Origin: a virus
Strand: one strand, 5' to 3'
DNA length: 23,412 nucleotides
IMG/VR virus record: IMGVR_UViG_3300025655_000301
Coordinates: 1 to 23,412 of that record
This document shows positions 1 to 23,412 of the stretch, in pieces. The notes beneath the pieces were generated by a model, which was given only the letters and a program-made list of their open reading frames with translations, did no database searches and was not told the DNA's origin. A program made the translations under genes and the position numbers. Position 1 is the stretch's first letter. Each line of letters opens with the position of its first letter.

Positions 1-1257
1 TTTCTTGGTGATAGTAAGAAAGCAGGCCTGTACGGGCAGCATTTGTGGAGACACGGCGGCAAGATGCTTGTTGTTACTGAGGGTGAGATAGACGCCATGA
101 GTCTTTCTCAAGCCTTGGACAATAAGTATCCGGTAGTTTCAATTCGAACTGGTGCAGCCGGTGCAAAGCGAGACATCGCTAAAAGCATTGACTGGGTTGA
201 AAAGTTCGAGTCTGTCATCTTCATGTTCGACCAAGATGAGCCGGGACGCAAAGCCGCTGAAGAGTGCGCTCTGTTGTTGTCGCCCGGTAAAGCAAAAATT
301 GCCCAGCTTCCGTTAAAAGATGCCAATGAAATGCTGGTGGCTGGCCGCGTTAAAGAACTTCTTGATGCTCAGTGGGCCGCGAAGCCTTTCCGTCCTGACG
401 GGATTGTGGCTGGCAATGAACTTTGGGACGTTGTGAGTTCCGTTGAACAGAACGAAAGTGTTCCTTATCCGTACCAAGGACTGAATGACAAAACGTTTGG
501 CATCCGCCGTGGTGAGATTGTCACTGTAACCGCAGGGAGCGGCATCGGTAAAAGCCAGCTTACTCGGGAGTTTGCGTATAGCTTGATTCGAAGTGGGCAT
601 AGCTTAGGTTATATCGCTTTAGAAGAAAGTGTTAAGCGTACTGCACTCGGTTTGATGGCATTAGAACTCAACAAACCAATCCACTTGAATAGAGATGGAA
701 TTACAAATGATGAGTTGCGTCGAGCCTATGATGAGACTGTCGGAAATGGTCGTGTATTTTTGTATGACCATTGGGGTTCTACAGATTCCGATAATCTTAT
801 CCAGAAAATCAGGTATCTGGTTCGTGGCTGCGGGTGTAACTACATTATTCTTGACCACCTCTCTATTGTGGTTAGCGGCCTCGATGGGGGTGATGAACGT
901 CGCATTATTGACAATACGATGACCAAACTTCGTACACTTGTGGAGGAGGTACAGTGTTCACTGATACTGATTTCGCACCTTCGTAGACCACAAGGCGATA
1001 AGGGCCACGAAAACGGTCAAGAAACAACACTCTCACAACTAAGAGGTTCAGCAGCAATCGGGCAGTTGTCTGACATGGTGCTAGGTCTCGAACGTAATCA
1101 ACAAGACAAAGAAAACCAGAATCTAACCACGGTGCGAGTTCTCAAGAATCGCTGGAGTGGGGATACGGGTGTTGCTTGTCATTTGCTTTACGACAGAGAC
1201 ACAGGACGCATGCAGGAAACCCTGCTGCTTGATGATGAAGAGGAGATGGAGTTTTGA
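1..1257 (+). CDS. Primase-helicase (T7 gp4-like), 5' end cut by window
   Basis: This is a bifunctional replisome protein: it makes RNA primers and unwinds DNA as a ring helicase. The reading frame is open from base 1, so the N-terminal zinc-binding domain and part of the primase core lie outside; 418 residues are visible against 566 in T7 gp4. The TOPRIM half shows the EGE motif (nt 79-87) and a DQDEPG metal-binding motif (nt 229-246). The RecA-like helicase half shows Walker A GSGIGKS (nt 535-555), a Walker B-type IILDHLS, then LILISHLRRPQG and LRGSAAIGQLSDMVLGLERN. The protein ends EEEMEF, an acidic tail with a terminal Phe like the T7 gp4 tail that docks on the DNA polymerase. The stop overlaps the TTG of the next small gene (TTGA). 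Family assignment is firm; the true start is not visible. Confidence 0.96.
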   Translation, partial: FLGDSKKAGLYGQHLWRHGGKMLVVTEGEIDAMSLSQALDNKYPVVSIRTGAAGAKRDIAKSIDWVEKFESVIFMFDQDEPGRKAAEECALLLSPGKAKIAQLPLKDANEMLVAGRVKELLDAQWAAKPFRPDGIVAGNELWDVVSSVEQNESVPYPYQGLNDKTFGIRRGEIVTVTAGSGIGKSQLTREFAYSLIRSGHSLGYIALEESVKRTALGLMALELNKPIHLNRDGITNDELRRAYDETVGNGRVFLYDHWGSTDSDNLIQKIRYLVRGCGCNYIILDHLSIVVSGLDGGDERRIIDNTMTKLRTLVEEVQCSLILISHLRRPQGDKGHENGQETTLSQLRGSAAIGQLSDMVLGLERNQQDKENQNLTTVRVLKNRWSGDTGVACHLLYDRDTGRMQETLLLDDEEEMEF

Positions 1258-1424
1258 ACAATGACGAGTGTTACACAGAAGCGGAGTTTCAACAGGCTTA
1301 TGTGAAGTTCCTTTTGGAACTACACGATGTTGAGAGTGATGGCATTGACTTGGGCAGATACCCAACGATTGATGAGTTTAGAGTCATATTCGAAGAAGAG
1401 TATGAATGTAGCAAATTAGGCTAG
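1254..1424 (+). CDS. Small acidic protein, TTG start, unknown function
   Basis: A 56-codon frame fills the gap between helicase and polymerase. It starts at TTG 1254, overlapping the helicase stop by 4 nt, with AGGAG at 1241-1245 eight bases upstream, an arrangement suited to translational coupling. The product is acidic, starts NNDECYTEAEF, contains a predicted helix around QAYVKFLLELHDV, and ends EEEYECSKLG. It has no ATG in frame near the 5' end, so TTG is the only plausible start. The position matches the small 4.x genes of T7, but I do not recognise a family. Real translation is inferred from the ribosome site, the exact fit to the gap, and the absence of another gene there. Confidence 0.6.
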   Translation: MNNDECYTEAEFQQAYVKFLLELHDVESDGIDLGRYPTIDEFRVIFEEEYECSKLG

Positions 1425-1439
1425 TGCGGAGACACAGCG

Positions 1440-3152
1440 ATGAGTAGATACATCCTAGATATTGAAACCGACAACTTGTTAGACAAAGTGACCACAATTC
1501 ACTGCGTAGTTTTGCGTGAAGTGGGACACCTGACCAGCGCACTGACGTACTACCGGGACAATCTGAAAAATTGCATAGAGCGTATCGAGTTGGCTGACGA
1601 AATCATCGGCCATAACGTATTAGCTTATGACCTTCCAGTTTTAGAAAAACTGTGGGGATTCAAGTACGAAGGTAAAGTAACTGACACTTTAGTTTGTTCT
1701 CGGACAATCTGGCCGAATCTAGGCGAGATTGACCAGAGCCAAAAGAAACTGAATCAGAAACTCTGGGGTAGCCACTCTTTGAAGGCTTGGGGGTATCGTC
1801 TAAATGAGCATAAGGGCGAATTTAATGACGGTAATCCTGATAGTTTCAAAACGTTCTCGATGGACATGTTGCATTACTGCGTGCAAGACACGTTAGTAAC
1901 CGACAAGTTATTCGCGTTGATTGAGAGCAAGGCGTTTTCCGAAGACGCTTTGAATTTGGAACACGAACTCGCATACCAGTTGTTCAAACAAGAACAGCGT
2001 GGGTTTGAGTTTAATGTCGAATCAGCAAGGGAACTCTACTCAAAGCTGGCGCAGAGAAAGAATGAAATAGAACTGGATTTGGTCGAGACGTTTGAGCCAA
2101 CAATCGTCGAACTAAAGACGAAGACCAAAATAATCCCATTCAATCCTGCGTCCCGCCTGCAAATTGCAGACCGCTTGATGAAGCGAGGCTGGAAGCCGAA
2201 AGAGTTCACCCCGTCGGGTGAAGCCAAGGTGGATGAAGCCGTCCTGCAAACAATCGAGATGCCAGAAGCAAAGCTGCTTCTTGAGTATTTGATGCTCAAC
2301 AAACGCATAGGACAACTCGCCACAGGAAATCAAGCGTGGCTGAAGCTGGAGAAAAACGGAAAACTACATGGAAGAGTTAACCACATGGGTGCGGTTACGA
2401 GCCGCTGTACGCACAGTAATCCGAACATGGCCCAAGTACCTTCGGTCGGCGCTCCTTTCGGTGCTGAGTGTCGTGGGCTTTTTACTGTTCCTCATGGCTA
2501 TTCACTTCTTGGTGCTGATGCTTCTGGTCTGGAGCTTCGTTGCCTTGCTCATTACATGGCTCGTTACGACGGTGGGGCTTACGGTAGAGAAATTCTTGAA
2601 GGTGACATCCACACTGCGAATCAAGAAGCTGCTGGATTACCTACCCGCAACGATGCGAAGAGGTTCATTTATGGCTTCCTCTATGGGGCGGGCGATGAAA
2701 AAGTAGGCGAAATCATTGGCAAGGGTTCCAAGGAAGGAAAAGCAATCAAGACTAAATTTCTTAGTAAAACCCCTGCGCTAAAAAAACTGCGAGATGCAGT
2801 CAGTCGTTCTGCGGAACGCGGCTGGATTAAAGGTCTGGATGGCCGTCGCATCCCAATTCGGCACGCGCACGCTGCCCTTAATACTCTTCTCCAATCCGCT
2901 GGAGCAATTATTTGTAAACGCTGGTATGTGACCGTAGAAAAGAAGTTGCGTGCCAATTCGTACACCGAAGAGGATGTTGCGATTGTGGCGTTTATCCACG
3001 ATGAATTGCAGATTCAGGTGCGGAAAGGTTTAGAAGATGAGGTAGGGCTGCTTGTGCAGGAGGCCATGAAGGACACGGAGCATTACTATGACTTCAAATG
3101 CCCCCTCGACTCCGAATACAAGTACGGAGACAACTGGGCTGACACCCACTAA
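1440..3152 (+). CDS. DNA polymerase, family A, with 3'-5' exonuclease (T7 gp5-like)
   Basis: This is the replicative phage polymerase, 570 residues against 704 in T7 gp5. The proofreading domain shows ILDIETDN (acidic D7 and E9), HNVLAYDLP (D64) and YCVQD (D150). The polymerase domain shows motif A GADASGLELR (D360), the O-helix RNDAKRFIYGFLYGAG (R403, K407, Y411) and motif C FIHDELQ (D521). The closing segment LDSEYKYGDNWADTH resembles the T7 C-terminus. The shortfall against T7 is mainly at residues 218-235, where only a short linker joins the thumb strands and the thioredoxin-binding insertion is missing. A second gap precedes GWIKGLDGRR (461-470). ATG 1440 has GGAG at 1428-1431. The last 65 nt overlap the next gene in another frame. 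Function is certain; cofactor use is inferred. Confidence 0.97.
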   Translation: MSRYILDIETDNLLDKVTTIHCVVLREVGHLTSALTYYRDNLKNCIERIELADEIIGHNVLAYDLPVLEKLWGFKYEGKVTDTLVCSRTIWPNLGEIDQSQKKLNQKLWGSHSLKAWGYRLNEHKGEFNDGNPDSFKTFSMDMLHYCVQDTLVTDKLFALIESKAFSEDALNLEHELAYQLFKQEQRGFEFNVESARELYSKLAQRKNEIELDLVETFEPTIVELKTKTKIIPFNPASRLQIADRLMKRGWKPKEFTPSGEAKVDEAVLQTIEMPEAKLLLEYLMLNKRIGQLATGNQAWLKLEKNGKLHGRVNHMGAVTSRCTHSNPNMAQVPSVGAPFGAECRGLFTVPHGYSLLGADASGLELRCLAHYMARYDGGAYGREILEGDIHTANQEAAGLPTRNDAKRFIYGFLYGAGDEKVGEIIGKGSKEGKAIKTKFLSKTPALKKLRDAVSRSAERGWIKGLDGRRIPIRHAHAALNTLLQSAGAIICKRWYVTVEKKLRANSYTEEDVAIVAFIHDELQIQVRKGLEDEVGLLVQEAMKDTEHYYDFKCPLDSEYKYGDNWADTH

Positions 3153-3543
3153 AACTGAACGTAAGAAGTTTGATATTGACCTTGCTTACGGAAAGGTTCG
3201 GGAAAAGCATGTTGCTGACATGCTTCAAGATAAAAAGATTGAAGTAAAGTCAGAACGCGACCGTTGGCAGTCAACAGGAAACATAGCAATCGAATATCAA
3301 TCCTACGGGAAACCGTCAGGCATTGATGCGACTGAGGCTGATTACTGGTTTCACAACCTGTGCATTGGTGACGAAATCTTCGCGACATTGGTATTCGATA
3401 CCAACGTTTTGAAAAAAATTATCGGGAAGCTGGACTGCATAAAAACGGTGTCCGGTGGAGATAACAATGCGTCGCGCATGTACCTGCTAAACCTGAAAAA
3501 GTTGTTTTCCACTGACGTAATCAAGGCTATCGCAGCCGCTTAA
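3088..3543 (+). CDS. Probable PD-(D/E)XK-type phage nuclease
   Basis: A 151-residue protein. From residue 33 it carries AYGKVREKHVADML, then KIEVKSERDRW and a TGNIAIEY...GKPSGI...TEADYW block (about 50-87). The D/E...ExK arrangement (E52, K54, with E69 beyond) fits a restriction-endonuclease-like fold common in small phage nucleases. No T7 gp3 signature was recognised. The N-terminus (1-23) is rich in Thr, Ser and Pro and is encoded in a 65 nt overlap with the polymerase 3' end. I keep ATG 3088 because it has GGAG at 3077-3080 and because no other ATG, GTG or TTG lies in frame before the conserved core. A role in host DNA breakdown or junction processing is inferred from position among replication genes. 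The fold is my reading of motifs, not a database match. Confidence 0.7.
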   Translation: MTSNAPSTPNTSTETTGLTPTKTERKKFDIDLAYGKVREKHVADMLQDKKIEVKSERDRWQSTGNIAIEYQSYGKPSGIDATEADYWFHNLCIGDEIFATLVFDTNVLKKIIGKLDCIKTVSGGDNNASRMYLLNLKKLFSTDVIKAIAAA

Positions 3544-5069: not shown

Positions 5070-6807
5070 TTATCTCGGTATTCAAATTGACGATAGCCGC
5101 GATAAAGACTTTTCAGACCAAGCACTAGCACTACTTAAAGATTATTACTGTAGAGAGGGCGAGTCCCCACAGGAAACACTCGCGCGTGCTTCCGTGGCTT
5201 ACTGTCACGGTGATAAGGCGTTTGCACAGCGAATATACGATTATGCTTCAAAGCGTTGGTTTATGTTCGCTAGTCCTGTTCTGAGCAATGCCGTTATTGA
5301 AGGGGAATCTCCGCGAGGTCTCCCTATAAGTTGTTTCCTAACTTATGTTGGGGACAGCCTCGAATCTCTTATCGGACACAACGCTGAGGTAGCTTGGCTT
5401 TCCGTAAAGGGCGGTGGCGTTGGTGGGCATTGGTCTGACGTTCGTGCTATCTCTGATAAAAGTCCCGGCCCAATCCCATTCATGGGTGTAGTCGATAGAC
5501 AGATGCTGGCCTATCGTCAAGGCCGAACACGAAAAGGAAGCTACGCAGCCTATCTTGATGTTTCCCACCCAGACATTGTTGAGTTCATTAACTTCAAGGT
5601 GCCTACCGGCGGCGACTCTAATCGCAAATGTTTTAATCTATTTAACGCCGTAAATGTATCAAATACATTCATGGACGCGGTGGAGAATGATGATAGTTGG
5701 GATTTAATCGACCCGCATAGCGAGGAGGTTAAAGAAACCGTTAAGGCTAGGCAGTTGTGGCAGCGAATCTTAGAAGCGCGGTTTCGCACTGGCAGTCCTT
5801 ATATCAATTTCATTGATACGGCGAACGCTGCTTTACCAGAAGAGCAAAAGAAACTAGGCCTAAAAATTCACGGTTCAAATCTTTGTAATGAAATCCACTT
5901 AGCCACAGATGAAAACCGGACTGCTGTTTGTTGTTTGAGTTCTGTGAACTTGGAAAAGTATGACGAGTGGGAAGAAACACCGATGATTAAAGACTTGGTG
6001 CGTCTTTTGGACAATGTAATTCAATTTTTCATTGACCACGCTCCAAGTGAACTCGACAAGGCACGCTACTCAGCGGCAAGAGAGAGGTCAATCGGCCTAG
6101 GCGCAATGGGCTTCCACGGCTACCTGCAAATGCACAACGTTCCTTGGGAAAGCCTACACGCGAAATTGCTCAACACAGCAATCTTTAGAAAGATTAAGGA
6201 GGACGCAGTTGAAGCTACTACTGCATTGGCTTCGGAACATGGCGAAGCGCCTGACATGGTTGGGTCTGGACGTAGAAACGCTCACCTTCTTGCTATTGCT
6301 CCAAATGCTAATAGCAGCATCATTTGTGGGTGTACACCAAGTATTGAACCACTGAAATCTAATGCCTTCACACACCGTACCCGTGCAGGTGCGCATTTAG
6401 TGAAGAACAAACACCTTGAATCATTATTGGCTACGAAAGGCCTTAATACGGATGAGGTGTGGAAAAAGATTATTGCAGCCGATGGCTCTGTCGCTGACAT
6501 GGAAGAACTTACCGACGAAGAAAAAGATGTTTACAAGACAGCTTTTGAAATTGACCAAGGGTGGGTTATTGACCATGCAGCAGACCGTCAGAAATTTATC
6601 TGTCAGGGGCAGTCTGTAAATCTTTTCTTTCCGGCGGGTTCACCTCGCAGTTATGTAAACAGCGTACACCTTCGAGCATACAAAAAAGGCTTGAAGGGTG
6701 TGTATTACTTACGCACTAACGCTGGCGTGCAAGCTGACAAAGTTGGACTCAAGGTTGAACGCATTGCTCTTCAAGATGCTGAAGAGTGTATGTCTTGTCA
6801 TGGATAG
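5062..6807 (+). CDS. nrdA: Ribonucleotide reductase, class I large (alpha) subunit
   Basis: Reduces ribonucleotides to deoxyribonucleotides with NrdB (7420-8370). Numbered from ATG 5062, the visible active-site residues are C91 in GLPISCFL, the finger loop SNLCNE (N273, C275, E277), and C290 in AVCCLSSVNL, the partner of C91. GVYYLRTNAG is the radical-transfer tyrosine pair, and the C-terminal C576/C579 (CMSCHG) is a redox relay pair. The glycine loop KGGGVGGHWSDVR is also present. Length is 581 residues against 761 in E. coli: the N-terminal ATP-cone is absent, so overall activity control by dATP is probably lost. ATG 5062 overlaps mazG by 8 nt. A TTG at 5053 is possible but sits only 3 bases from the GGAG at 5046-5049, while ATG is 12 bases from it; neither spacing is ideal. 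Confidence 0.95.
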   Translation: MRDYLGIQIDDSRDKDFSDQALALLKDYYCREGESPQETLARASVAYCHGDKAFAQRIYDYASKRWFMFASPVLSNAVIEGESPRGLPISCFLTYVGDSLESLIGHNAEVAWLSVKGGGVGGHWSDVRAISDKSPGPIPFMGVVDRQMLAYRQGRTRKGSYAAYLDVSHPDIVEFINFKVPTGGDSNRKCFNLFNAVNVSNTFMDAVENDDSWDLIDPHSEEVKETVKARQLWQRILEARFRTGSPYINFIDTANAALPEEQKKLGLKIHGSNLCNEIHLATDENRTAVCCLSSVNLEKYDEWEETPMIKDLVRLLDNVIQFFIDHAPSELDKARYSAARERSIGLGAMGFHGYLQMHNVPWESLHAKLLNTAIFRKIKEDAVEATTALASEHGEAPDMVGSGRRNAHLLAIAPNANSSIICGCTPSIEPLKSNAFTHRTRAGAHLVKNKHLESLLATKGLNTDEVWKKIIAADGSVADMEELTDEEKDVYKTAFEIDQGWVIDHAADRQKFICQGQSVNLFFPAGSPRSYVNSVHLRAYKKGLKGVYYLRTNAGVQADKVGLKVERIALQDAEECMSCHG

Positions 6808-6809
6808 TT

Positions 6810-6956
6810 ATGGCAAAACCAAAAAAGACGGACTTGGCGTGGCACCCCGATAAGGAACCTAAAGGAACCTCTATCGGGAGAGGCCACTTCAAAATTAAAA
6901 CCATGAATAAAAATAAGAAAGCCTCTTACAAACCGTACAGGGGGCAAGGCAAATGA
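6810..6956 (+). CDS. Small basic phage protein, unknown function
   Basis: A 48-residue, strongly basic frame that starts 2 nt after nrdA and whose stop overlaps the next gene as ATGA. It begins MAKPKKTDLAWHPDKEP, has a central TSIGRGHFKIKTMNKNKK and ends SYKPYRGQGK. The TSIGRG...MNKNKK...YRGQG pattern recalls short conserved proteins seen in other environmental phages, as I remember them; no function is known to me. The charge suggests nucleic-acid or RNP binding, which is inference. The ribosome site is weak (GGAT at 6802-6805), so translation may depend on coupling to nrdA. Confidence 0.7.
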   Translation: MAKPKKTDLAWHPDKEPKGTSIGRGHFKIKTMNKNKKASYKPYRGQGK

Positions 6957-7246
6957 AGAACAGATTCGATTTAGAAGATGAAATCGTGGCCTGCTGGAGT
7001 GTATGTGGTGATTTAGAGAGGGCAACTGAATACCTCTACCAACGCCAAACCCCATTATCTATAGATGAAGTGTGGAACTTATTCTACGGAATTAAGTGTT
7101 TGTACGAGGCTAAATTCGACAAATTGTTCGACACGTTTACTCAAGTATTCCATTTAGACCAGTACGCCTACCACGAAGACGATGATGAACGCATGGACAT
7201 TATCGGAAGAAATGGGAATGACGGTCTTCACTACGACGAAATTTAA
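6953..7246 (+). CDS. Conserved-looking acidic phage protein, unknown function
   Basis: A 97-residue acidic, helical protein. It opens MKNRFDLEDEIVACWSVCGDLE, has a middle segment NLFYGIKCLYEAKFDKLFDTF, and closes with an acid-rich HEDDDER stretch. The RF-LE-I--CW opening followed by a helix ending YE-KFD is, from memory, shared with small unknown proteins of T4-like and T7-like environmental phages. Start ATG 6953 overlaps the previous stop and has a purine-rich GGGGGCAAGG at 6940-6949. Its position beside the reductase genes suggests a link to nucleotide metabolism, but no catalytic motif is visible. Confidence 0.75.
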   Translation: MKNRFDLEDEIVACWSVCGDLERATEYLYQRQTPLSIDEVWNLFYGIKCLYEAKFDKLFDTFTQVFHLDQYAYHEDDDERMDIIGRNGNDGLHYDEI

Positions 7247-7256
7247 GGAATGAAAA

Positions 7257-7433
7257 ATGACAGAGACAAAAAAGGCGCCCAAAAAGGGTACTAATAGCCC
7301 CACTCTGGGTACGAACACGTCTGCCGACGCAGCACTGCTGGCTGTGGCGTTGTTAATCAACAAAGGGTACCCGCTCGAATCAGCGATTGAAACAACAAAG
7401 ATGCTGATGGGGCGTGTACATGAGTTTGCTTGA
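7257..7433 (+). CDS. Small protein, unknown function
   Basis: A 58-residue frame with AAGGA at 7245-7249, seven bases before ATG 7257. The N-terminal 20 residues are Lys/Thr-rich and look flexible (KKAPKKGTN). The rest is mostly helical and mildly hydrophobic (DAALLAVALLINKGYP, then IETTKMLMGRV), with no clear membrane span because a Gly-Tyr-Pro break interrupts it. It overlaps the start of nrdB by 14 nt, so the two are likely co-translated. It might be a small helix-turn-helix or a reductase accessory protein; I cannot assign either. Confidence 0.6.
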   Translation: MTETKKAPKKGTNSPTLGTNTSADAALLAVALLINKGYPLESAIETTKMLMGRVHEFA

Positions 7434-8370
7434 GCCGTCTCTTGTCTATAAGCCTTTTAAGTATCCGTGGGCCGTAGAGTTCGCATCGCAGCACGAGAAG
7501 ATTCACTGGGGGGAGTGGGAAGCCAAGTTACAAGACGATGTAACGCAGTGGCAGGCTGGAAAACTGAGTCCAGCAGAAAAGAACCATATCACTCAAATCT
7601 TGAGATTGTTCACACAATCTGACGTTGCTGTAGGCACTAATTACCTCGAATACTACATCCCAAAATTCAAAAATAACGAGATTCGTGCAATGCTTTCGTC
7701 ATTCGTGAATCGTGAGTTTGTTCATCAACGTGCTTATGCGCTTCTGAATGACACGCTCGGCCTCCCTGAAGAAGAGTACAGCGCCTTTCTTGATTACAAA
7801 TATATGAAAGACAAGGTGGACTTCATGGGAGACATTGACATCCACAGCCACCAAGGAACGGCCACTGCCATTGCCCGCTCCGTACTCAATGAGGGGATGT
7901 CTCTCTTTTCCGCTTTCGCGATGCTCTTGAATTATCAGCGTTTCGGAAAGATGAAAGGGATGTGCGAAATAGTCGAGTGGTCTGTCAGAGATGAGACCAT
8001 GCACTGTGATGGAATGGTGAAGCTGTTCCGAACTTTTTGTGATGAACACCCAAAGATTATCAACGATGAATTTAAGAAATCTATTTACGAAATGTTCCGA
8101 CAAGCTGTTTCGCTTGAGGATAGGGTTATTGACGCAGCTTTCGAATTGGGCGGAGTCGAAGGCATTACGCCTACAGATGTCAAAAATTACATCAGATACA
8201 TCGCAGACCGCAGGCTCATACAACTTGGCCTTAAAGGAAATTGGAAGGCTAAGGAAAACCCGCTCCCGTGGCTAGATTGGGTCTTAAATGGCGACAGCTT
8301 CAAAAACTTCTTTGAGGGGACTGTAACGGACTACAACGCCGCAGGTATGGAGGGCGAATGGGGCTGGTGA
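7420..8370 (+). CDS. nrdB: Ribonucleotide reductase, class I small (beta) subunit
   Basis: A ferritin-like protein that holds the metal/tyrosyl radical needed by NrdA. Numbered from ATG 7420, every expected ligand is visible: D68 (FTQSDVAVG), E99 and H102 (REFVHQRAY), E158 (LNEGM), E192 and H195 (RDETMH). Y106 occupies the radical-tyrosine position, so this is a tyrosyl-radical enzyme and not a Tyr-less variant. Length is 316 residues, short against 376 in E. coli. The C-terminal tail that should dock on NrdA is short, carries a Tyr (about 305) and ends EGEWGW. ATG 7420 has GGGG at 7409-7412; GTG 7414 is the alternative. It is separated from nrdA by three small genes, where many genomes have the pair adjacent. 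Confidence 0.95.
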   Translation: MSLLEPSLVYKPFKYPWAVEFASQHEKIHWGEWEAKLQDDVTQWQAGKLSPAEKNHITQILRLFTQSDVAVGTNYLEYYIPKFKNNEIRAMLSSFVNREFVHQRAYALLNDTLGLPEEEYSAFLDYKYMKDKVDFMGDIDIHSHQGTATAIARSVLNEGMSLFSAFAMLLNYQRFGKMKGMCEIVEWSVRDETMHCDGMVKLFRTFCDEHPKIINDEFKKSIYEMFRQAVSLEDRVIDAAFELGGVEGITPTDVKNYIRYIADRRLIQLGLKGNWKAKENPLPWLDWVLNGDSFKNFFEGTVTDYNAAGMEGEWGW

Positions 8371-21800: not shown

Positions 21801-22337
21801 ATCTCAGGTATTCCTACTAGGGAAGGCAGAGAAGATGCAGTCCGTGAGGAAATCGAACGCTTGGGAATGACTGTGAGCAAGGTTCCTCATATCCAATATG
21901 GCTCCGTAAATCTCAAGAAGTTTACTGTTAAGCCTAACGGCAACCGTACTGTCTACGATTATTACCAAGACCTCGTAGGCACAATGAAGGTTCCGGGAAT
22001 TCCGGGTGGTTCAGAAAAAGAAGGGGCAACTCTTTACGAATACCTTGAGTTCATCATTCAGAATGACTCAACGTATCGTGAGACTTTAAGTGATGGGTCT
22101 CGTCAATATCAGACGAAAGAGCGTATTGTCGGTTCAAGAGAAAAACGCATCCGTGATGCTATCAACATGTACAGAACTTTAGCGCTAGCTGAACTTCGTA
22201 AGCCGCAACACCTAGGCAACCAACACCCAGCAATCTTAGCCTTAGATAAGGCAAAACAGACTGAGGCGTTGTCTCAATCTCAGATTGGTGAGCGTGTTGC
22301 ACCTAACCTCTTATCTCCACTAATGGGTAATCAATAA
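18807..22337 (+). CDS. Internal virion protein D (T7 gp16-like), no transglycosylase domain
   Basis: The largest ejected core protein, 1176 residues against 1318 in T7 gp16. In T7 it opens the cell wall and draws in the genome's leading end. Here the N-terminus lacks any lytic transglycosylase signature (no catalytic ESxF/Y block). It instead begins with a charged helical region and WYNEDNGKWEAFLDHVEAN. Three hydrophobic, Gly/Ala-rich stretches follow (about 161-176, 190-212, 237-259), suited to membrane insertion. Further on are GPTAYHEALEFAAKNGAD and the FITEKHIL-like RFTEKHILRPLPVMRQVMPF block with RTPMNLLSHWIERTP, usual in the gp16 C-terminal half. AGGA at 18795-18798 serves the start. 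The stop shares a base with the tail-fibre start. Confidence 0.9.
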   Translation: MGQTYTFHDEQGNAAASYRSEHQLSRNEINDIAESYKNAGFLNSENKQNELMSRQDLESNSGLIDAYKTYYKRRNGKDFQGDNKELVADYMEQMRYYDANLGSILNLTSELASDYYNESERQSLAVMFGAWERTQPWYNEDNGKWEAFLDHVEANVTDPANLAALFTGGAAAGGTMTAKQIAKAGLRKVLAQYIKAGIKAGAVTGASFAIPYSVGRQYNLGEIGLGEGVTFEQTAKDTALGAVFGGGFGGIGGGATGFLNKTSTGRFQKLAAKEAAALTSKVDNLTGDEVAKSGRAMLSWADTLANPEITGEARQAAQQEFLGNIGDGMAKFFNAKNRNNAGESVSTEQMTQKAIGMLHKLGVNESNMTPDEVLNRVVNAYEKQKLDAANFDNWNALVIHMESWAVDRFRKAALTNDPKMYAYFDSASRAMTTAQNMAGQSGRALSIQKMRNRLGPTAYHEALEFAAKNGADANDMALILAKASDSGPTWRKQFIDGLNEFWINNILGAFNTLFINTGGSYVHMLERNLIELGAGSKLVLTGKGGQQLRMAIAQLAVEHTQVVSSLRYALKAFARSDGYIDPRRHVNDVGESAIAIGDRNFNFMQPSTLLRQEDESIGMYLANWLGNTNRLIGGRGMAATDELIKQMAFRGKLFSLVLDDKLKNVSGASNIAAAIKEAREETQKLLNKHIDNIGQGLQPSEPRIKQALEHARLVTFQNDLKDDPAGAVGRFTEKHILRPLPVMRQVMPFVRTPMNLLSHWIERTPALQNTSKELQRMLNGSPAERAKAQAIMGVGIAIWTNVLYFAAQDRLEGSGGTDPKRKDQRMAGDMLPDSIELEDGSKVGFRKFDPYAKSYRLMAKIMEVLKDGRPEEAVDNFMNVTGAIAMALVETPTTQGLSDLLAIPAGIQDTGDASAKKFQAMLPYARFFNELSRLSGDEQLFWEIAGVGDDFVEKTTDSMGKSVVKAYPFLHDPEDPIDVRRDPLSGKPLTGFQNLGFSISGIPTREGREDAVREEIERLGMTVSKVPHIQYGSVNLKKFTVKPNGNRTVYDYYQDLVGTMKVPGIPGGSEKEGATLYEYLEFIIQNDSTYRETLSDGSRQYQTKERIVGSREKRIRDAINMYRTLALAELRKPQHLGNQHPAILALDKAKQTEALSQSQIGERVAPNLLSPLMGNQ

Positions 22338-23412
22338 TGGCATATAGTTATATTGAGTACACTGCCGCTGGCAGCAGTACCTTCAACATCCCATTCGGTT
22401 ACATCGACCAAAGTGAAATCAGTGTTTATGTAGACGGTGTTAGTGCTACTTTTACGTTCACTACCGCAAGCACTGTAAATGTAACGCCTACGCCAGCTTC
22501 TGGCGCCCTTGTCCGTGTCGAGCGTAATACCGACCTGACAAGCCGTGTTGTTGATTTTGCTTCTGGGTCTGTATTGACTGAAGAAGACATGGACAACTCG
22601 AACATTCAGGTGTTCAACGCTGCGCAAGAAGCAATCGACAAAGCAAACGCGTCCATTGCGCTTGATGTAGATGGCAAATATGACGCGTCTTCTGCTGGGA
22701 CTAATCGTGTAATTAAGAACGTAGCAGACCCAGTAGACGCTAATGATGCTGTGAACAAGTCTTGGGCAGAGTCTGGGATGACTTCTCAGCTTAGTATCGC
22801 GACAACGCAGGCATCCACAGCTACTTCTGCTGCAACCGCAGCTTCTACTTCTGCCACTAACGCAGCAGGTTCAGCATCTAGTGCGTCCACAAGTGCGTCT
22901 GGTGCTTCTACCTCTGCGACTAATGCAGCAAACTCTGCCACAGCAGCAGCAAGTTCTGCATCCTCAGCGGCCTCTAGTGCTACGGCGGCGGCATCTTCAC
23001 AGAGCGCAGCAGCTACTTCTGCGTCTAACGCCTCCACAAGTGCAACCACTGCATCCACGGCAGCAACAAACGCCACGGCTCAAGCGAGCGCAGCAGCTAA
23101 CAGCGCAACAAATGCTGCGGCTTCTGAATCTAGCGCGTTGACCAGTAAGAATGCAGCAGCAACTTCTGCAACTAACGCTGCTTCTTCTGCTACCAATGCA
23201 GCAACTTCTGCGACTTCTGCGGGTAACTCGGCAACTAATGCACAGACTTCAGCAACTAATGCTGCATCTAGTGCTACTAGCGCTTCTACTTCAGCAGCCT
23301 CTGCCTTGTCTAGCAAGAATGCGGCAGCATCCAGCGAAACGAATGCAGCAACCTCTGCAACCAACGCAGCATCCAGCGCAACTGCGGCAGCGGCAAGTGC
23401 AGCCAGCGTTGC
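22337..23412 (+). CDS. Tail fibre protein (T7 gp17-like), 3' end cut by window
   Basis: Receptor-binding fibre of the short tail; 358 codons are visible and the frame stays open to the window edge. The first 145 residues match the tail-attachment domain of T7 gp17: STFNIPFGYIDQSEISVYVDG, RVERNTDLTSRVVDFASGSVL, and a DGKYDASS...IKNVADPVDANDAVNK block. From about residue 157 the protein becomes an Ala/Ser/Thr/Asn repeat shaft, probably a trimeric coiled coil. The receptor-binding tip lies outside the window, so host range cannot be read. The start overlaps the gp16 stop (TAATG) without a clear ribosome site, suggesting coupled translation. Confidence 0.93.
   Translation, partial: MAYSYIEYTAAGSSTFNIPFGYIDQSEISVYVDGVSATFTFTTASTVNVTPTPASGALVRVERNTDLTSRVVDFASGSVLTEEDMDNSNIQVFNAAQEAIDKANASIALDVDGKYDASSAGTNRVIKNVADPVDANDAVNKSWAESGMTSQLSIATTQASTATSAATAASTSATNAAGSASSASTSASGASTSATNAANSATAAASSASSAASSATAAASSQSAAATSASNASTSATTASTAATNATAQASAAANSATNAAASESSALTSKNAAATSATNAASSATNAATSATSAGNSATNAQTSATNAASSATSASTSAASALSSKNAAASSETNAATSATNAASSATAAAASAASV
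22805..23412 (+). repeat. Ala/Ser heptad-like repeat in tail-fibre shaft
   Basis: About 200 codons of degenerate repeats, with units such as SATNAAS and SATSAGN recurring at seven-residue spacing. SSKNAAA-type units interrupt the series at least twice (near nt 23144 and 23308). The DNA is correspondingly repetitive in GCAGC, TCTGC and GCAAC words. Heptad Ala positions fit a triple-stranded coiled-coil fibre. Repeats like this are prone to slippage or recombination and also to assembly error. Confidence 0.85.

Follow-up and report, generated by a model that had tools for sequence, protein, structure and literature searches.

The DNA analysed here, a 23,412-base IMG/VR virus record from a marine phage (hereafter the window), encodes a T7-like DNA polymerase without the fork-facing hairpin and the thioredoxin-binding domain (TBD) of T7 gp5, together with a helicase that keeps an acidic, Phe-ended tail. 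The T7 replisome is the textbook minimal one, and the W579 hairpin of its polymerase is held to be essential for fork splitting and helicase coupling. We favor the reading, with a probability of about 0.55, that the window represents a ground-state T7-type replisome, to which pins were added later in other lineages, and in which an older, constrained Phe tail serves as a tether on the basic polymerase core. The age and constraint of the tail and the repeated gain of pins are drawn from the data, while the docking surface is one that we infer. The data show that related pin elements were gained several times independently and that the helicase tail predates them. The general interest lies in the repeated addition of pins to a tail-tethered, pin-less replisome, and natural pin-less enzymes make it testable how helicase and polymerase couple without a pin and what the original partner of the Phe-ended tail was. 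The searchable literature, mostly excluding subscription papers, contained no mention of the distribution or repeated gain of pins, which is weak evidence for novelty.

The gp4-like helicase gene lies upstream of the polymerase gene, as in T7:

1..1257, + strand: C-terminal part of a T7 gp4-like primase-helicase (Toprim and DnaB_C), 5' truncated by the window start (phmmer, Pfam)
1213..1254, + strand: helicase tail after TGRM, QETLLLDDEEEMEF, 14 residues with a terminal Phe (sequence, clade comparison)
1440..3152, + strand: family A DNA polymerase, T7 gp5-like, 570 aa, without TBD and without front hairpin (alignment, Pfam, model)

The helicase matched 5ikn_D and 6n7i_A in phmmer (E about 1e-100), and Pfam found Toprim_2 and DnaB_C. 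Its Toprim and RecA-type helicase domains and its acidic, aromatic-ended tail are those of a T7 gp4-type primase-helicase, whose zinc-binding N-terminus falls outside the window. It ends DDEEEMEF, with E-E-E-M-E-F at nt 1237-1254, as the first-pass annotation had read it, and the stop codon at 1255-1257. The polymerase matched DNA_pol_A in Pfam (E 1.5e-45) and T7 gp5 (6n7w_H) with an E of 4e-123, and shares with T7 gp5 the family A fold, the gene neighborhood, and the GLDGR and palm motifs. Its N-terminus aligns with T7 gp5 residues 3-262, the probable 3'-5' exonuclease domain, and the DxE motif (D7, E9) is invariant across a 44-sequence alignment, as would suit the predicted exonuclease.

Two parts of T7 gp5 are missing from this enzyme:

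2800..2852, + strand: pin site, polymerase residues 454-471, with helix 445-458, turn ERG and strand 462-464; the 15-residue T7 hairpin (W579, K587-R591) is absent (alignment, model)
2100..2132, + strand: TBD stump, residues 221-231, a predicted mini beta-hairpin with K226, K228 and K230 (model, column counts)

In the alignment to 6n7w_H, 15 residues lying between ...LRESIQQT and KRRWIKGLDGRK in T7 gp5 have no counterpart in the window polymerase, which runs from ...LRDAVSRSA into ERGWIKGLDGRR. The shortfall of about 15 residues annotated between TPALKKLRDAV and GWIKGLDGRR is thus exactly 15 relative to T7 gp5, with the coordinates and strings correct. With the numbering verified on the T7 sequence, W579, K587, K589, R590 and R591 all lie inside the missing stretch or at its edge, and K587-R591 presumably form the front basic patch of T7 gp5. 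The TBD region comprises 16 residues in the window vs 73 in T7. An AlphaFold2 model built from 44 sequences (pLDDT 93.2, pTM 0.90) contains no front hairpin; a three-residue turn joins helix 445-458 to strand 462-464, and the stump forms strands at 221-224 and 229-232. The best VIA-align match to this model was T7 polymerase 5ikn_C (Z 44.2, rmsd 1.7 over 553 residues, 45% identity), and the best solved Foldseek match was 6p7e, which its title identifies as T7 polymerase bound to a mimic peptide of the gp4 tail. By its DNA_pol_A domain and T7-polymerase fold, the window polymerase belongs to the broad T7 gp5-type family A, but it fails two features of the T7-subfamily (Studiervirinae-type) gp5, namely the front beta-hairpin with W579, K587, K589, R590 and R591, and the thioredoxin-binding domain.

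In T7, according to the accessible text of PMC12593628, W579 of the fork-facing beta-hairpin stacks on the first parental base pair, and the front basic patch lies near the pin. The available part of PMC8835902 describes a K545/K549/K553 cleft and a loop-deletion mutant, LDgp5, which resembles the window polymerase in having a short linker in place of the hairpin. In LDgp5 strand displacement is reduced and synergistic gp4 binding abolished, so the T7 core alone is insufficient; the natural pin-less form would have to manage in its own replisome. That same part of the paper reports no direct contact between loop and gp4. Where the first-pass annotation assumed two docking sites on T7 polymerase, the accessible portion of a review (PMC8472574) counts three positive patches, with one or two helicase tails engaged simultaneously, and gives a threefold lower processivity, with speed hardly affected, after removal of the tail. 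The segment absent from the window is the fork-separation pin (W579) plus the front basic patch, more than a docking loop; describing it as a docking loop was sound as far as the front patch goes, and incomplete in that the segment is mainly a pin in the portions of PMC8835902 and PMC8472574 available to us.

To place this absence in a wider context, eight viral-contig scans and 22 annotated phage regions were surveyed, yielding 620 alignable polymerases. Front-segment length was bimodal, with 20-25 aa in 516 of them, 36-54 aa in 99, and a cut segment in 5. Most of the T7-like polymerases sampled have no pin. The 99 insert-bearing polymerases comprised 83 of T7 type and 16 in four further families with Trp-bearing basic inserts, none of which has a full TBD:

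RHEph21 type (RHEph21 is locus L088): 9 polymerases
L493-495: 3 polymerases
L501/L502/L511: 3 polymerases
L570: 1 polymerase

The complete set of non-T7 insert rows is L088, L481-L488, L493-L495, L501, L502, L511 and L570. E. coli Pol I has no insert at the pin site, and Pol nu aligns across the site without one. Phylogenetic trees placed the hairpin of T7's subfamily deep within pin-less lineages (support 100). A 130-cluster tree with E. coli Pol I as its root requires five changes of the insert, and in it every insert family adjoins pin-less relatives; a 44-row tree likewise gave five changes and rejected all insert rows as one clade (p-AU 7.08e-05, a value weakened by the choice of the constrained group after an earlier tree had been viewed). 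A single origin of the hairpin was considered and rejected; it derived from an initial tree, in which the RHEph21 insert was scored as unrelated and the sample held none of the other insert families.

The inserts were checked for Trp and net charge, and their turns were judged by eye. All five insert families contain Trp and are net basic, vs Trp in 0 of the 516 pin-less segments over the same stretch; under independence, Trp would occur in all five with a probability of 5.3e-3, which is suggestive only. The L501 insert, independently gained, is predicted to be a beta-hairpin, with strands at 497-502 (including W501) and 505-510 in a block with pLDDT of 67-76. It is conceivable that the hairpin alone was transferred between phages, although the insert families differ in both length and sequence.

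Alignment and trees indicate that the pin-less form is the older, common design, with hairpins added later several times; judged by sequence, the T7 hairpin is a late insert of T7's subfamily. The first-pass annotation had the loop lost in the window lineage, whereas E. coli Pol I and 516 of 620 phage polymerases are without it, which reverses the direction. Retention of the tail despite the absent loop is what would be expected if T7-type docking were ancestral, the loop deleted in the window lineage and the tail rewired to a new surface. We regard this history as extremely doubtful, since E. coli Pol I has no insert and the trees rooted on it show a pin-less background, with insert changes occurring once (RHEph21 scored as lacking it) or five times. 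Loss of the loop is contradicted by both lines of evidence, with some room left on insert polarity by the long E. coli Pol I outgroup branch.

Retention of the tail itself was evaluated in every one of the 80 IMG/VR relatives whose polymerase matched that of the window at 63-100% identity; a helicase was matched in 75 of these, in addition to the window. The terminal Phe is present in all 76 helicases of this clade, so the window tail is neither chance nor an assembly error. A last-codon test revealed Phe in 73 of 74 rows, with at least 4 TTT/TTC changes and no amino-acid changes among the 73; the helicase in the remaining row (L052) is split, with F as the last residue of its C-terminal piece. 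The same test in the Syn5 group gave Phe in 64 of 64 with at least 9 synonymous changes. As measured by these codon counts, the acidic Phe tail of the window clade is kept by purifying selection. The annotated pairing of a missing T7 front-patch segment and TBD with a tail kept under constraint is therefore borne out by the alignment, the clade-wide Phe and the codon test. Beyond the clade, helicase ends were readable and counted in 558 of 615 loci, and were aromatic in 95 of 96 insert-bearing systems and 346 of 462 pin-less systems; for one helicase ending in V (L230) the sequence has ambiguous bases, and the reading is probably broken. Because aromatic tails span both the insert-bearing and the pin-less groups, the tail is older than the pins.

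The T7 gp4 tail, like that of the window, is acidic, ends in Phe and follows the last strand (TGxL), but its 24 residues differ in sequence from the 14 after TGRM in the window, and it does not share the Ile, Val or Met often found at position -2 in the window clade. Tail length after TGxL was 20-28 (median 24) in the T7 query group, with medians of 14, 7 and 9 in the window's, HTVC011P and HTVC119P groups, respectively. The last two groups (L085 and L104-L183; L100 and L344 onward) have helicase ends of 6-9 residues without a terminal Phe, although they retain the SSB tail, as SDF or as EDFI with Phe second to last. The expectation that relatives lacking the loop would keep the tail thus held throughout the window clade and failed in these practically tailless groups, which led us to reject any rule that pin-less systems always have a tail.

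Such shrunken, Phe-less ends, and the greater length of tails accompanying T7-type pins (20-28, against the clade median of 14), are what would be seen if the tail were a leftover of little function in pin-less systems. This seems highly improbable to us given that in the window and Syn5 groups the Phe is invariant while its codon changes synonymously, and that 346 of the 462 pin-less systems keep an aromatic end. Two relatives (L021 and L025) have polymerases about 69% but helicases only 42% identical to those of the window, with the acidic, Phe-ended tail still present. Their helicase gene was probably exchanged, as identity levels suggest, and such an exchange would suit a tether requiring only acid and Phe.

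The surface on which the tail might dock is less certain. The principal candidate adjoins the pin site:

2715..2792, + strand: fork-facing basic helices, residues 426-451, IGKGSKEGKAIKTKFLSKTPALKKLR, net +8 (charge count vs T7)

The T7 counterpart, residues 541-566, has a net charge of +4, and median charges for this region were +5 in pin-less polymerases and +3 in the T7 group. Window residues 426-451 overlap the T7 K545/K549/K553 cleft; at cleft columns 545 and 553, K/R frequencies were 0.35 and 0.26 in pin-less polymerases vs 0.54 and 0.62 in the T7 group. The stump columns showed the opposite trend: the K228 column is K/R in 96% of 80 pin-less clusters with aromatic helicase ends vs 0% of 14 T7-type clusters, and at the columns of T7 P328 and E330 the K/R frequency is 0.86 and 0.73 across 110 pin-less clusters vs 0.00 and 0.08 across 13 T7-type clusters. 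R460 as the equivalent of T7 R590 is alignment-dependent, being matched in two alignments and a gap in another. In the T7 polymerase complex with a gp4-tail peptide, the Phe is said to occupy a hydrophobic pocket ringed by positive charge. With a fork-facing helix of +8 vs +4 and lysines on the stump, the annotated statement that both known docking sites are missing was too strong, and its consequence, that the tail must bind a different surface, does not follow, because a basic receptor may still be present on the polymerase. Our best guess from this analysis is that the basic polymerase core is the likeliest docking site. The basic core lysines may instead serve DNA binding, and those of the stump could contact primer-template DNA rather than the tail.

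None of 124 K/R columns of the polymerase covaried with loss of the helicase terminal aromatic in a comparison of low power (8 independent pairs); the best column scored 4.3 of 8, R460 2.1 and K228 0.8. Such an outcome is compatible with a main receptor other than the polymerase, the tail resembling an SSB C-terminal peptide whose partner would be the phage SSB, the ring of the helicase itself or a host protein that binds SSB, with docking on gp5 a later use in T7. We consider this alternative unlikely, though it deserves attention. Helicase tails in a sister sub-clade end EEDYDDIPF, FDDIPF or NFDDVPF, similar to the DDDIPF of E. coli SSB, and the Lo5R7 helicase ends DDDDLPF. The pattern [DE]2, any, [ILVM][PED][FW] occurred in 46 of 329 pin-less rows and 0 of 82 hairpin rows (the latter including RHEph21), but it was devised after the tails had been viewed, and hydrophobic-Pro-Phe readily arises by chance in short acidic tails. 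For this count, 51 of 462 rows were dropped (41 with no helicase, 5 with cut or weak helicases, 5 with cut front segments); 462 of 479 polymerases had been used in the stage of T7 numbering and TBD length. SSB tails persist where helicase tails are gone: phage SSB tails are aromatic-ended in nearly all systems, and 54 loci have an aromatic-ended SSB only. Against a receptor outside the polymerase, the T7 tail binds gp5 patches, as described in the accessible portions of PMC12593628 and PMC8472574. The window helicase itself, ending EMEF rather than xPF, has no acidic-hydrophobic-Pro-Phe end of the bacterial SSB type. IPF, VPF or LPF helicase ends were found in L062, L065, L070, L073, L074, L077-L079 and L095, and the SSBs of the same phages, where found, end xDF.

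Under the ground-state reading that we favor, the window polymerase lineage would never have possessed the separation pin with its front basic patch or the TBD. As alignment and tree show, T7's subfamily acquired both the hairpin and the TBD, and a Trp-bearing basic insert arose at the same position in no fewer than four further lineages; the acidic Phe-ended helicase tail predates these inserts. In the window, the tail would still be a flexible tether holding the polymerase near the helicase, expected to dock electrostatically on basic core surfaces, namely helix 426-451, which faces the fork next to the pin site, and perhaps the TBD-stump lysines. These surfaces are probably shared with the SSB tail, which is also Phe-ended. 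With the later hairpin, T7 would then have gained fork splitting and a further docking patch on top of the older tether. For a broader proposition the odds appear even: that a Trp-bearing basic beta-hairpin serving as a fork pin has arisen no fewer than five times in phage family A polymerases, each time at the same helix-strand junction and mostly in enzymes without a TBD, that the older Phe tail is the coupling device, and that window-type polymerases are natural "loop-deleted" enzymes coupled through the tail and basic core alone. If so, polymerase-led fork splitting in T7 would be a repeated add-on and not a general phage mechanism.

The architecture of the window is shared by known phages. 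The polymerases of HTVC019P and CRP-114 (about 44-50% identical to that of the window) and of Syn5 (39%), which represent pelagiphage/roseophage and cyanophage systems, are likewise pin-less with an absent or short TBD, mostly accompanied by an aromatic-ended helicase tail; the window's clade has the shortest TBD stump among them. Compared with T7 gp5, which carries the W579 hairpin, front patch and 73-residue TBD, the window enzyme has neither element, a more basic fork-facing helix, and lysines on its stump. For the first-pass annotation as a whole, the observation is confirmed; its interpretation is supported in part, and the change ran in the opposite direction.

Several other features of these genomes were observed. 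A possible 56-aa acidic protein is encoded at 1254-1424 (+), from a TTG start overlapping the helicase stop codon, and several relatives also have small genes between helicase and polymerase. The gene directly after the polymerase, at 3088-3543 (+), had no Pfam match; a KxEVKSE stretch in its product resembles a PD-(D/E)xK nuclease, by eye only. A probable tail-fibre gene at 22337-23412 (+) has a long, repetitive, Ala/Ser/Thr-rich C-terminal part and continues past the window end. In lau218 (L097), the annotated DNA polymerase at 6797-7738 is only 313 aa long and apparently lacks the exonuclease part.
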